42,379 nt of DNA from Streptomycetaceae bacterium. GTDB lineage: Bacteria; Actinomycetota; Actinomycetes; Streptomycetales; Streptomycetaceae. Shown here piece after piece: positions 29,965-35,345 of this stretch. The stretch spans positions 1-42,379 of the forward strand of contig JAFAUH010000010.1 of NCBI GenBank assembly GCA_019243445.1, given 5' to 3'. A model generated the notes under the pieces. That model searched no databases. It saw nothing but the letters and a program-made list of their open reading frames with translations, and was not told the origin of the DNA. The position numbers and the translations under genes were made by a program. Numbering within the stretch: the stretch's first letter is position 1; each line of letters opens with the position of its first letter.

Positions 29965-32900
29965 TCAGGGCCGGCTCCCGTATCCTCCACCGCCCGGTGT
30001 CCTCACCACGAGTGCGTCCCCCGCGCCGACGTCGGCCGCATCGCAGTCGGCCAGCTGCTCGACCGTGCCGTCCGCCCGCTCGATGAGGTTGGCGCCGAGC
30101 GCTCCTGGCCCGCCACCTGCCATGCCGTACGGCGCCACTCGCCGGTGGCCCGACAGCAGCGCCACCGTCATCGGTTCGAGGAAGCGGATGCGCCGCTCGA
30201 CGCCGCATCCGCCGCGCCACCGGCCAATGCCGCCGCTGCCGTGGCGGATCCGGAACTCCTCCACGCGTACCGGGTAGCGCCATTCGAGGATCTCGGGGTC
30301 GGTCAGGCGCGAGTTGGTCATATGGGTCTGCACCGCATCGGCGCCGTCGAAGCCCTCGCCCGCTCCCGAGCCGGAGGCGACGGTCTCGTAATACTGGACG
30401 CGGTCATTACCGAAGGTGACGTTGTTCATGGTGCCCGAGCCCTCGGCCTGGGCACGCAGCACCGCATACAGCGCGCCGGTGACGGCCTGGGAGGTCTCCA
30501 CGTTCCCGGCAACCGTGGCGGCCGGATAGCTCGGCGCGAGCATGGAGCCGGTGGGCACGCGGACTTCAAGTGGTTTGAGGCAGCCGCTGTTGAGCGGGAT
30601 GTCGTCGGCGACGAGGGTGCGGAAGACATAAAGCACAGCCGCCATCACCACCGAGCGGGGGGCGTTGGTGTTGCCAGGCTGCTGCGGCGAGGTGCCGGTG
30701 AAGTCGAGGACGGCGCTGCGCGAGGCGTGGTCCACGTGCAGCGCGACCTGGATCACGGCGCCGTTGTCGGTCTCGTAGCGGTATTCACCGTCGTCGAGGC
30801 CGGCGATGATCCGGCGCACTGATTCCTCGGCGTTGTCCTGGACGTGCCGCATGTAGGCGTGTACGACGTCGAGGCCGAACTGGTCGACCATACGGCGCAA
30901 TTCGTGGATGCCTTTCTCGTTGGCGGCGATCTGGGCGCGCAAGTCGGCGAGGTTGGTCTCCGGGTCGCGCGAGGGGTACGGGGCGCTGGTGAGCAGTTCG
31001 CGCGTCTCGGTCTCGCGCAGATGGCCGTCGCGTACCAGCAGCCAGTTGTCGAAGAGCACGCCTTCCTCGTCGATGGTGCGGCTGAAGGCGGGCATGGAGC
31101 CCGGGGTGAGGCCGCCGATCTCGGCGTGGTGCCCGCGCGAGGCGACGAGGAAGAGCAACTCGCGCCCGGCGCCCGCGGCGCCAGCCGCTGATGTCTCCGT
31201 GAAGACGGGGGTGACGACGGTGACGTCCGGCAGGTGGGTGCCGCCGTGGTAAGGGTCGTTGATGGCATAGACGTCCCCTGGCCGCATTGTCCCTTCGTTC
31301 CGCCGCAGCACCTCTTTGATGGACTCGCCCATGGAGCCGAGGTGGACGGGGATGTGCGGGGCGTTGGCGATCAGGTTGCCCCCGGGGTCGAACAGGGCGC
31401 AGGAAAAATCGAGCCGCTCCTTGATGTTGACCGAGTGCGCGGTGTTCTCCAGGCGGACGCCCATCTGCTCGGCGATCGCCATGAACAGGTTGTTGAACAC
31501 CTCCAGCATCACCGGGTCGACACTGGTGCCGACCGCCGTCCGGCTCGGGCGCGGCCGGGATCGGGTGAGGATGAGGTCGCCGTGTTCGTCGCCCACGGCG
31601 CGCCAGCCGGGGTCGACGACGGTGGTCGCGTCGGCTTCGGCGATGATCGCCGGGCCTTCGACGAGGTCACCGGGCCGGATGTCGTCACGCTTGTACAACT
31701 CGGTGTGCTGCCACCGTCCTTCGGTGAACATCCGTACCGTCGCCGCGGGGCGCAGGGCCTCCTCGCGCGGCGCGTGCACGGTGGGAGGCTGTGCGGGCGG
31801 CCCGGAGGAGCCGGTGGCTTCGACACAGACCGCTTCGACGACGAGCGGTTTGTCCATCACGAAGCCATATCGCCCGCGGTGGTCACGCTCGAAGGCGGCT
31901 TGCATCCGCTCGGCGGTGTCCACTTCGACGGACAGGGAGGAGTCGGTGCCCTCGTAGCGCAGCAGGACGCGGGCGGTGGTGCGGACGGTCTGCGGTGGCA
32001 CGCCGTCGTTGTGCAACTGCGCCCGGGCGAGCTGCTCCAGTTCGCCGCGCACCTGATCGACCGTTCCCATCGCCTCCGCGGCGAGCCGGGACTCCACGGA
32101 GCGTTCGTGCAGCGCCACCGCGTCCGCCATGCCGATGCCGTATGCCGACAGCACTCCGGCGAGCGGGGGTATCACGACGGTGTCGATGCCAAGGGCGTCA
32201 GCGACCGCGCAGGCATGCTGGCCGCCCGCGCCGCCGAAGCTGGTGAGCGCATAGCGGGTGACGTCGCGCCCGCGCTGGACGGAGATCTTCTTCACCGCGT
32301 TGGCGATGCCCAGCACCGCGATGTCGAGGAAACCCGCGGCGACCTCCTCCGGGCTGCGGCGGTCGCCGGTGGTCGCGGCCGACCACTGCGCCAGTTCCTC
32401 GAAGTGGCGGCGTACGACTGCGTCGTCGAGCGGCTGGTCGCCGTTCTTGCCGAACACCGGCGGGAAGTGAGCCGGTTGGATGCGGCCGAGCATGACGTTG
32501 GCGTCGGTGACGGTGAGCGGGCCGCCGCGCCGGTAGCAGGCAGGGCCGGGGTCGGCGCCGGCCGAGTCGGGCCCGACGCGGTAGCGCATCCCGTCGAAGT
32601 GCAGTATCGAGCCACCCCCTGCCGCGACGGTGTGGATGTCCGTCATGGGCGCGCGCATCCGCACCCCGGCGACCTGGGTGCTCAGCACGCGTTCGATCTC
32701 GCCTGCGTAGTGCGAGACGTCGGTCGATGTGCCGCCCATGTCGAAGCCGATCGCACGGTCGTATCCCGCCCTGCTGGCGGCGCGCGCCATGCCGACCACG
32801 CCGCCCGCGGGGCCGGAGAGCACCGCGTCCTTGCCTCGGAAGTGGCCGGCTTCGCGCAGACCGCCGCTGGATTGCATGAACATCAGCCGGACATCGCGCA

Positions 32901-33588
32901 GTTCGTCGGCGACCTGGTCGACATAGCGGCGCAGGATCGGGGAGAGATAGGCGTCGACGACGGTGGTGTCGCCGCGGGGCACGAATTTGATCAGTGGGCT
33001 CACCTCGTGCGAACAGCTCACCTGGGTGAAGCCGAGGGAGCGGGCCGCCTCGGCGACGGCGCTTTCGTGCGCGGGATGGCGGTAGCCGTGCAAGAAGACG
33101 ACGGCCGCGCTGCGGATGCCGTCGCGGTGGGCGTCGCGCAGGGCAGCTGTGGCCGCGTCCAGGTCGAGGGGACGCACCGCTTCACCGTGCGCCCCGACGC
33201 GTTCCGGCACCTCGATGACGCGCTCGTACAGCGCTTCGGGCAGCACGATGTGCCGGTCGAAGAGGCGGGGCCGGTTCTGGTAGGCGATGCGCAGCGCGTC
33301 GCGGAAGCCCTCGGTGACGACGAGGACGGTGGGTTCGCCGGTGCGCTCCAGCAGGGCGTTGGTGGCGACCGTCGTGCCCATCTTCACGACGTCGATCAGG
33401 TGGGACGGGATCGGCTCGTCCGGCTCCAGGCCGAGCACGAGCCGGATCCCGGCGACAGCCGCGTCCCGGTAACTCTCCGGTCGCTGGGAGAGCAGCTTGC
33501 GGCTGACCACCCGCGCGTCCGGGGCCAGCGCCACGATGTCGGTGAAGGTGCCGCCACGGTCGATCCAGAACTGCCAGCGCCCGGTCAT
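29965..33588 (-). CDS. hydantoinase A/B fusion, 5-oxoprolinase (ATP-hydrolysing) type
   Basis: Protein of 1207 residues, the length of single-chain 5-oxoprolinases, which open 5-oxoproline to glutamate using ATP. The N-terminal HyuA half has [13 protein letters not shown] and [17 protein letters not shown] (actin-like ATPase motifs), then [20 protein letters not shown]. The HyuB half starts near 745 ([20 protein letters not shown]) and contains [19 protein letters not shown] and [13 protein letters not shown]. The ATG at 33588 is chosen because homology starts there ([14 protein letters not shown]). The Shine-Dalgarno is weak. It lies 173 bases after the HEAT gene stop on the same strand. Narrow substrate assignment within the hydantoinase family is by length and motif only. 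Confidence 0.92.
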
Positions 33589-33761
33589 GTGCTCATTGTC
33601 GCCTACTTGCGACCCTTGGTCACTGGACCGTGATGGCTGCGGGGCGGACCTGCAAATGGGCCTGTCATACGTAAATGAACCTGCCATACGGATAAACGGA
33701 TAATACGAGGCGGACGGGCACCGTAAACGTGAAAGCTGCGGGAAGGAGAAGCAGACCAGAG

Positions 33762-35345
33762 TTATCGCGTGGGTTTTGCGCCGAGTCTGCCGCGGATTGC
33801 CGTTTGGACCTCGGCCTCCTCCGCGGGATCGGCGGCCAGTCGGCGCAGCTGTGCCAGTACGCGGACATCCCCGGTCGCCGCGTGGCGGGCGGCGAGCTCG
33901 CGCGTGGCCTCTTCGCAGTCCCAAAGACACTCGATCGCAAACCCTTGCGCGAACGACGGATCGGTCACGGCGAGCGCTCGCGCCGCGCATCCGCGCACAT
34001 GGGATGAGGAGGTCTCTCGGTAGATATGCCGTACAACGGGTGTCGCGCAGCCGATGCCGAGCCGCCCGACGCCTTCGACGAGGACAGCGAGCCCTTCCGC
34101 ATCAGCGCCCGCCATCAATCCCCTAGCGGGGGGACCACCGGCTTTAGCCGGTGGGGGAATCGCTTCCTTGGCCTGTGGTACTTTCCTTTCGTCCCGCAAG
34201 GGATCGGTTCGGGCTGGACCGCAACTCTCGGGTTGGAAGCCCCCCTCCTTCAGGTGGGGGAGCGGAGTCACGCATACCAGGCGCCGCAGCGCGGCGAGCA
34301 CGCGCCCCGCGTCCTTGGTCGTGCCCCGGATGGCGAGCACGCCGGCGGCAGCGCCGCCGAGCGCGTCCTCGCGCGTAGCCCACGCGCGGGCGCGCTCCAG
34401 GGCCGCGGTGCCGCGTATGCGCGCGAAGGATTCCAGTGCGGCACGGGAGACGACAGCTGAGCCGTCGGCCGCGCCCGCTTCGATCAGGTCGAGCACTACT
34501 GCACTGTCCTGGGGAGCGTGACGATCTGCGAGAAAGCGCAGCGCGGCTGCGCGCGCCGCCTCCGGCTCTCCATGGGCTGCCGCGAGCAGTTCGTGGCGGT
34601 GCTCGGGCCCTGCGACCGCTGCCAGGCAGCGTGCGGCCGGGGCGTCGCGGTGTTGTGCGGGATAGCAGTCGAGGCCCTGCTGGGCCCAGTTGAGGATGTC
34701 GTGCACGCTCCAGCCGGGCGCTGGGCCTGCCGGGCGCAGCTGACGCTGCCAGCGGTCGAAGGCGTGTTGTTCCTCGGCGGCGCGCACCCGCTCGCCGTGT
34801 ACCGGGTCTTGCGCCCACAGTCGCCAGGGCCGCCTTTCGTATGTCTCGCGCAACGCTCGCGTCAGCGCGGCGTCACCCTCGGGTGTGCAAGGGAAGCGGG
34901 CGAGAACTGCCGGGGCGAGCGCACGCAGCTCTTCATCGTCGTCACGCAGTGCAAGCTCGTCCAGGGCCCAGGCCCAATTGGCGCCGTTGGCCGTGTAGTC
35001 ACGCAGCAGCCGCAAGGCGTCGCGACGGCCGTATCCGGCGAGGTGGCCGAGGACGGACAGGGCGAGGCCGGTGCGCTGCTCGTCGCTGTCGAGAAGGTCG
35101 TCGGCGTGGAAGAGATGCTGTTCGATCCCGTCGAGTCCGCCTTCGAGCTCGGAGTACAAACGTGCGTAATACAACGAGCGTGCTTCCACCTGCCAGTCGC
35201 GGCGGGGGTCGCTCAGGACGCACTGCTCCAGCACGGCGAGGGCCTCGGCGTGCTGCTCCGCGAGGGCATGCAGGACCCCGTCTCCGCGTCCTCGCTGGAG
35301 GAGGCCGAGAAGGGTGCCGCTTGGTGCTATGACAGGGTGGAACAT
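33762..35345 (-). CDS. HEAT-repeat protein with an in-frame insertion
   Basis: Protein of 527 residues, helical throughout, with repeating paired-helix patterns such as [20 protein letters not shown] and [20 protein letters not shown], typical of HEAT repeats. Such proteins form curved scaffolds for protein binding; the partner is unknown. About 48 residues (from [19 protein letters not shown] to [14 protein letters not shown]) do not fit the repeat pattern and are Pro/Gly/Cys-rich. They are encoded by an IS200/IS605-like remnant whose length keeps the frame open. The ATG at 35345 has GCGAGG upstream. The gene runs toward the oxoprolinase gene. Whether the protein still folds is unknown. Confidence 0.75.
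34117..34277 (+). mobile_element. IS200/IS605-type remnant (PATE-like) inside the HEAT-repeat gene
   Basis: Two strong hairpins with 4-base loops mark the ends: CCACCGGC-TTTA-GCCGGTGG (34135-34154) and CCCCCTCC-TTCA-GGTGGGGG (34241-34260). Between them, a plus-strand frame reads [14 protein letters not shown], like the TnpB tail that precedes the right end. GGAGTCA follows the second hairpin. The whole insert is small enough to have been mobilised in trans. The host gene frame stays open through it. Exact ends are uncertain. Confidence 0.6.

Follow-up and report, generated by a model that had tools for sequence, protein, structure and literature searches.

The window, a stretch of 42,379 nucleotides from a Streptomycetaceae bacterium (assembly GCA_019243445.1, contig JAFAUH010000010.1), holds a gene whose coding sequence is interrupted by a short segment that leaves its reading frame open. 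A first-pass annotation of the sequence had described this segment as a 160-bp IS200/IS605-type remnant at 34117-34277, adding about 48 residues to a HEAT-repeat protein. The locus therefore raises the question of what the inserted segment is, and of how the gene that received it can still be read.

Comparison with orthologues confirms that the insert is real and that it interrupts the gene, while its edges and its size have to be corrected. All 29 orthologous loci from the same family (L022-L050) are uninterrupted, which was the check that the annotation had named, and the gap in the alignment is exactly 52 residues. When the flanks are rejoined without the element, the gene strand reads GGTATGC followed directly by ATGGCGGGC; the element therefore occupies 34116-34271, a length of 156 bp, with CCAT immediately on its 5' side in the plus strand. 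Within the host gene it accounts for 52 codons, residues 359-410, in frame. The HEAT_2 model of Pfam covers residues 413-487 of the host protein with 19.9 bits, below the curated cut-off of 27.7, and "HEAT-like" is for this reason a fair label, where the annotation had spoken of HEAT repeats outright. In an AlphaFold model built from 17 sequences, whose mean pLDDT of 68.9 limits its use to local statements, residues 360-411 form a loop with a pLDDT below 50 between helices 343-357 and 419-429. The neighbouring minus-strand open reading frame (1341 aa, window 29965-33990) presumably encodes a fused hydantoinase/oxoprolinase with A and B parts. The features of the locus are as follows.

33762-35345, minus strand: host gene for the 527-aa HEAT-like protein, from the list of open reading frames, Pfam and the orthologue comparison
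34116-34271, plus strand: inserted element of 156 bp, IS200/IS605-derived by comparison, non-autonomous, of the PATE type
34112-34115, plus strand: target CCAT, left cleavage site and putative TAM, kept in the left flank; on the minus strand ATGG, the codon of Met411
34120-34124, minus strand: left-end motif resembling a Shine-Dalgarno sequence, four bases from the ATG; it reads AGGGG in this copy and AGGAG in the consensus of the family
34120-34133, plus strand: left-end hairpin 1 (CCCC TAGCGG GGGG)
34135-34154, plus strand: left-end hairpin 2, tetraloop TTTA (helix 1; three pairs changed on both sides)
34191-34204, plus strand: stem-loop A of the omega-RNA-like 3' half (helix 2)
34205-34221, plus strand: stem-loop B, loop GGGCU as in tnpB 3' ends (helix 3)
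34222-34235, plus strand: stem-loop C (helix 4; two pairs changed on both sides)
34241-34260, plus strand: right-end hairpin, tetraloop TTCA (helix 5)
34264-34271, plus strand: right terminus GGAGTCAC, with TCAC as right cleavage site; the minus strand of the element begins with GTG
34272-34287, plus strand: position that a guide segment would take if the 3' half serves as an omega-RNA, deduced from the known TnpB arrangement

The two tetraloop hairpins that had been said to bound the insert are thus found at 34135-34154 and 34241-34260. The GTG that opens the minus strand of the element (34269-34271 in the window) recurs in 45 of the 50 complete copies, and it stands exactly where the native ATG once followed the native start signals.

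An origin in the IS200/IS605 family, which the annotation had proposed, is borne out by the uninterrupted orthologues, by the lack of a target duplication and by ends that match tnpB-bearing elements. Transposase genes (tnpA) occur at three loci of the same genome (L009, L010 and L012), and L009, which carries both tnpA and tnpB, has CCAT as its left flank and GGAGTCAC as its right end; its TnpB, of 399 aa, is apparently intact. The suggested search of the genome for a tnpB with a matching right end has accordingly found one. Three tnpB-only elements from other genomes (L079, L080 and L081) possess a left end of like design together with the right end GGAGTCAC, and L061/L083 and L071/L082 are decayed versions of such elements. 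In IS608, as the passages covered describe it, insertion takes place 3' of a tetranucleotide that is retained in the left flank (PMC5934647), and this geometry also holds for the present family: the flanking sequence is TTAC in IS608 and CCAT here, both have subterminal hairpins, and the distinct right cleavage site is TCAA in the one and TCAC in the other. Unlike the members of IS200/IS605 described there, however, the present element is without tnpA or tnpB, and its target coincides with ATGG starts.

The element has subterminal palindromes at both ends, keeps a short target on the left without duplicating it (as the bioB and pafA empty sites and the CCAT boundaries show), and holds no transposase gene within its 156 bp, its ends matching those of the autonomous element L009 and of L079-L081. 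These properties are shared with palindrome-associated transposable elements (PATEs) such as those of Haloquadratum walsbyi, which have near-terminal palindromes, need no terminal inverted repeats, make no target duplication and are too short for a transposase, some of them being derived from IS605-type elements by loss of the core (PMC3119063). Landing on start codons and a ribosome-binding motif at the element's end are, in contrast, not described in the passages covered of that paper. By comparison of sequences, the insert in the window is a transposase-free IS200/IS605 derivative of the PATE type, belonging to Streptomycetaceae; the type of element is known, whereas its habit is unusual.

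The insert has nine matches in its own genome by BLAST and nine by a covariance model built from 21 copies, and one BLAST match is 99% identical over the full length. A DNA search found the element in 33 of 394 genomes of the family, and the covariance model, at a threshold of E 1e-4, in 60 of the 392 genomes from the genus to which G389 belongs. An exact-pattern search of 84,980 named species genomes returned 21 stretches, all from Streptomyces or Wenjunlia, and a distant-mode search of the plasmid collection gave no match. The analysis of insertion sites used 122 model hits, among which weak hits above about E 1e-9 are incompletely represented; removal of 22 duplicates by left flank gave 100 unique copies. 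In 62 of these the element is immediately preceded by CCAT and in 73 by CAT, and the remaining 27 lack CAT at the boundary given by the model. L063, L165 and L173, three copies whose left end is unclear, have the same right flank, agactggtgcgctg, which marks another old conserved site, away from any detected start codon.

The commonest site of the family is the start codon of a gene, an observation that lay beyond what the first-pass annotation could see. The left end seen most often reads GCTAGGAGACTG directly before ATGG on the minus strand, and the consensus is AGGAG-ACTG-ATGG. Either AGGAG or GGAGG is present at the left end in 60 of the 73 copies with a CAT boundary, and the spacing from GGAG to ATG is 4 nt in 57 of the 73, at the short end of the native range here (3-10 nt); the element's motif pairs more weakly with the anti-Shine-Dalgarno sequence than do two strong native sites. 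A classifier based on codon usage, trained on long open reading frames of the fetched loci, assigned 47 of the 72 testable unique copies to starts, 1 to an internal in-frame position and 24 to neither ("other"), the 27 copies without CAT and one with too short a flank standing outside the classification. For 1408 further CCAT sites of these flanks, in contrast, the classifier returned 78 starts, 366 internal positions in frame and 964 others. When copies are merged by gene, 37 independent loci result, and the start excess still gives a Fisher p of about 1e-20. The 60 copies from the blind model search alone comprise 26 starts, 14 other, 19 without CAT and 1 with a short flank. The excess of landings at start codons is thus well supported. 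In the literature listings covered, for the most part of openly accessible papers, no report of start-codon landing by IS200/IS605 elements was found.

The genes entered at their starts include those for FtsY, biotin synthase, MTA phosphorylase, PtsI, ROK glucokinase, EF-G2, PxpA, adenosine deaminase and Pup ligase. Read from the ATG at the element, the NCBIfam models begin at residues 1-5 for MTAP, PtsI, ROK glucokinase, PxpA, adenosine deaminase and PafA; the FtsY model spans residues 139-409 only, that for BioB begins at residue 17, and for EF-G2 the stretch is partial and scores under the cut-off. L111, one of the ten proteins matched against these models, had no match. The classifier overlooks true starts with weak codon bias: PtsI at L094 is called "other" in spite of a full-length NCBIfam match, and such cases were left unmoved in the counts. 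It also labels the window copy "other", though the orthologues show that copy to be internal and in frame, and its single internal in-frame call (L104) is possibly wrong, the protein starting, as we read its sequence, like a TetR regulator. A gene that we take to encode a sugar ABC transporter ATPase has a copy at its start codon in several species of Streptomyces (L065, L066, L069, L090, L092, L097, L098, L107, L122 and L129), and this insertion is for that reason considered old and kept.

Empty sites reveal what such a landing does to the gene. In two carriers, the flank of bioB ends in caggatcggctctc or caggatcgactctc, followed by an element of 152 or 157 bp and then by ATGGACCTG; in the 22 of 29 relatives in which the start was located (it was not found in the remaining 7), the same kind of flank runs directly into ATGGACCTG. 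Similarly, all 23 relatives examined for pafA have gcgtaatgttc directly before ATGG, and the carrier has 152 bp inserted at this point. The ftsY site is empty in G001, the one other genome of the window's genus, and in other genera, the start not being found in 3 of the 30 compared. The ftsY copy of the window's own genome (L008 1171-1229, contig C230) is a decayed left half that has lost the second hairpin and the right end, with AGGAG-CTTG-ATGG intact.

The native signals that were parted from their start codons can be recognized beyond the right end. An SD-like or -10-like motif lies at the proper distance past it in 28 of the 36 start copies whose right end is intact, as opposed to 143 of the 964 "other" CCAT sites that served as control; 22 of the 36 have an SD-like motif, 9 a -10-like motif (3 both) and 8 neither, with motif definitions that are our own and set from general knowledge. 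The notion that all sites are leaderless genes was rejected, given the native SD-like motif in 22 of the 36. Several targets (L183, L154, L100, L106, L132 and L139; bioB, pafA and others) do have a leaderless appearance, their ATG being preceded within a few bases by a -10-like motif, and insertion would make them leadered.

The left-end motif is retained unevenly between site classes. Of the 47 start copies 45 still have GGAG, whereas among the 24 "other" copies 14 do (Fisher p 0.00017); since a retained CAT boundary is part of the definition of the start class, intact left ends are favoured there. The right end is missing from eleven start copies, every one of which retains GGAG. Loss of the right end itself (11/47 start against 2/24 other copies) does not differ significantly (p 0.19).

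Taken as a whole, these results are best explained, in our judgment with high probability, by a start-landing PATE with a built-in SD-like motif, of which the window copy is an in-frame exception. A Y1 transposase acting in trans would insert the element directly 3' of CCAT without duplicating the target, a geometry seen at the sites themselves. In about half of the recognizable copies, and in the majority of those whose left boundary is clear, this CCAT is the start ATGG of a gene read on the opposite strand, and as a consequence the element parts the native start signals from the start codon, as at the empty sites. The AGGAG of the left end then stands four bases before the same ATG and probably keeps the gene translated; initiation from the element's own motif is what we infer from this arrangement. 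Selection would thereafter hold the motif while the rest of the element decays. Against this reading stand the 27 unique copies that lack CAT at the boundary and the 24 further ones that were not assigned to starts, the short spacing and weaker pairing of the motif, and the window copy itself, with its internal position and its AGGGG. Opinion is evenly balanced on a stronger form of the argument, according to which the element may be translationally neutral by virtue of a target that is the complement of ATGG, a left end that supplies AGGAG and a UGAUG stop-start overlap, and a right end that supplies GTG, with core genes (ftsY, bioB, pafA) depending on a transposon-borne ribosome-binding site. 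If this were true, the native signals would face GTG as a substitute start codon.

A rival account, to which we give somewhat under an even chance, is survivorship alone: the element would enter any CCAT, genic insertions would be purged, those that fall between a gene's native signals and its ATG would persist, and GGAG would be just a part of the hairpin bound by the transposase. In the copy-rich genome of S. carminius (G694), the classifier puts 4 of the 9 unique copies at starts, or 5 if PtsI is counted, and CCAT may for this reason be the sole true target, with survival doing the rest. The window's own genome likewise has, besides the internal copy, one that lies 36 bp upstream of a likely start (L002/L141). 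However, intergenic sites away from starts ought to survive as well, and a purely structural role for GGAG predicts something other than its unequal retention at starts and elsewhere, including its presence in every start copy that lacks the right end.

The plus strand of the element raises a further possibility, compatible with the start-landing PATE. The annotation had seen in it an end like a TnpB tail and, as a possibility, an omega-RNA-like scaffold antisense to the host gene. At the level of RNA this homology holds: the 3' half comprises three stem-loops and a terminal hairpin that finishes at the right end, and a comparable succession is formed by two tnpB 3' ends, which share the GGGCU-loop stem-loop, a second stem-loop and the terminal hairpin. 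Of the TnpB reading frame, on the other hand, only a few residues survive, and an Rfam scan of 33700-34700 gave no match up to E = 1, neither to an RNA of this kind nor to a self-splicing group I intron such as an IStron would contain. In an alignment of 21 distinct copies, 95.4% of the cells of the five named helices are paired and 7 of 30 pairs show changes on both sides, a number reached by 2 of 500 shuffles, while their covariation score was reached by none; the test favours these helices, since they were drawn partly from the consensus of this very alignment. The structural evidence is comparative, because single sequences fold no better than shuffles, whether 34108-34285 as single-stranded DNA (z -0.94) or the 3' half of the window copy alone as RNA (z -0.01).

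The evidence supports descent of the 3' half from an omega-RNA, and makes its use as a guide RNA plausible. A resident TnpB might employ the scaffold in trans to cut empty CCAT sites and so keep the element in place, the least certain step of the proposed mechanism and one that we hold tentatively, at somewhat under an even chance. The shared stem-loops, the covariation above shuffles and the apparently intact TnpB of L009, with the same flanking CCAT and the same end, speak for it; against it are the missing Rfam match, the unremarkable fold of the 3' half, and the persistence of the right end in 24 of 27 unique copies that lack a CAT boundary, so that keeping the right end does not depend on the element being intact.

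There remains the window copy itself, which sits not at the start of a gene but on an internal in-frame ATGG, at Met411. The annotation was right that neither stop nor frameshift occurs across the insert: the host frame has no stop, whereas the other two antisense frames have two each, and 156 bp make 52 codons. Because the internal ATGG is in frame and these codons are free of stops, the host reading frame continues, the 527-aa protein is still readable, and the element would form a disordered 52-residue loop within it. A fused product of 527 aa is the simplest outcome predicted for this gene; a weak restart at Met411, giving 117 aa, is also possible.

An open frame alone is not striking, since 26% of shuffled inserts are open in a given frame and 18 of the 50 complete copies (the window's included) are a multiple of three and open in the phase of the ATG; a special preservation of the frame was rejected for the same reasons. 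An inert IS605 remnant, open by chance (about 0.26) and perhaps carrying an antisense omega-RNA scaffold, was the view first taken of this locus. It is apt for the window copy, and the scaffold homology is real, but as an account of the element it is unlikely: the copy that is 99% identical, the favoured length (11 of the 50 complete copies are exactly 156 bp) and the repeated landing at starts argue for a mobile element and not for one remnant. The term "remnant" holds in part only; the insert belongs to a defined, mobile-looking family.

Small palindromic repeats do occur in frame inside protein genes in Rickettsia, whereas intragenic in-frame copies are an exception in the present family. 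A coding element of that manner, selected for translation inside proteins, is very improbable in spite of the window copy and the 18 open ones, as 27 of the 50 are not a multiple of three, 5 that are have a stop, 22 in all have a stop in the phase of the ATG, and besides the window copy the sole internal call is the doubtful L104.

Mobile elements need modes of landing that spare the host. IStrons, in the passages covered of their description, are likewise linked to insertion sequences and reach harmless insertion by splicing out of the RNA (PMC4227781), and Tn7-like elements, in the part of the account covered, choose safe sites (PMC10293859). The present insert, unlike an IStron, would remain in the RNA, its own motif starting translation. 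If confirmed, this family would spare its host by landing on start codons with a translation signal of its own; core genes of these bacteria would then rely on transposon-derived initiation sites, and the leaderless-looking bioB and pafA would have become leadered genes.
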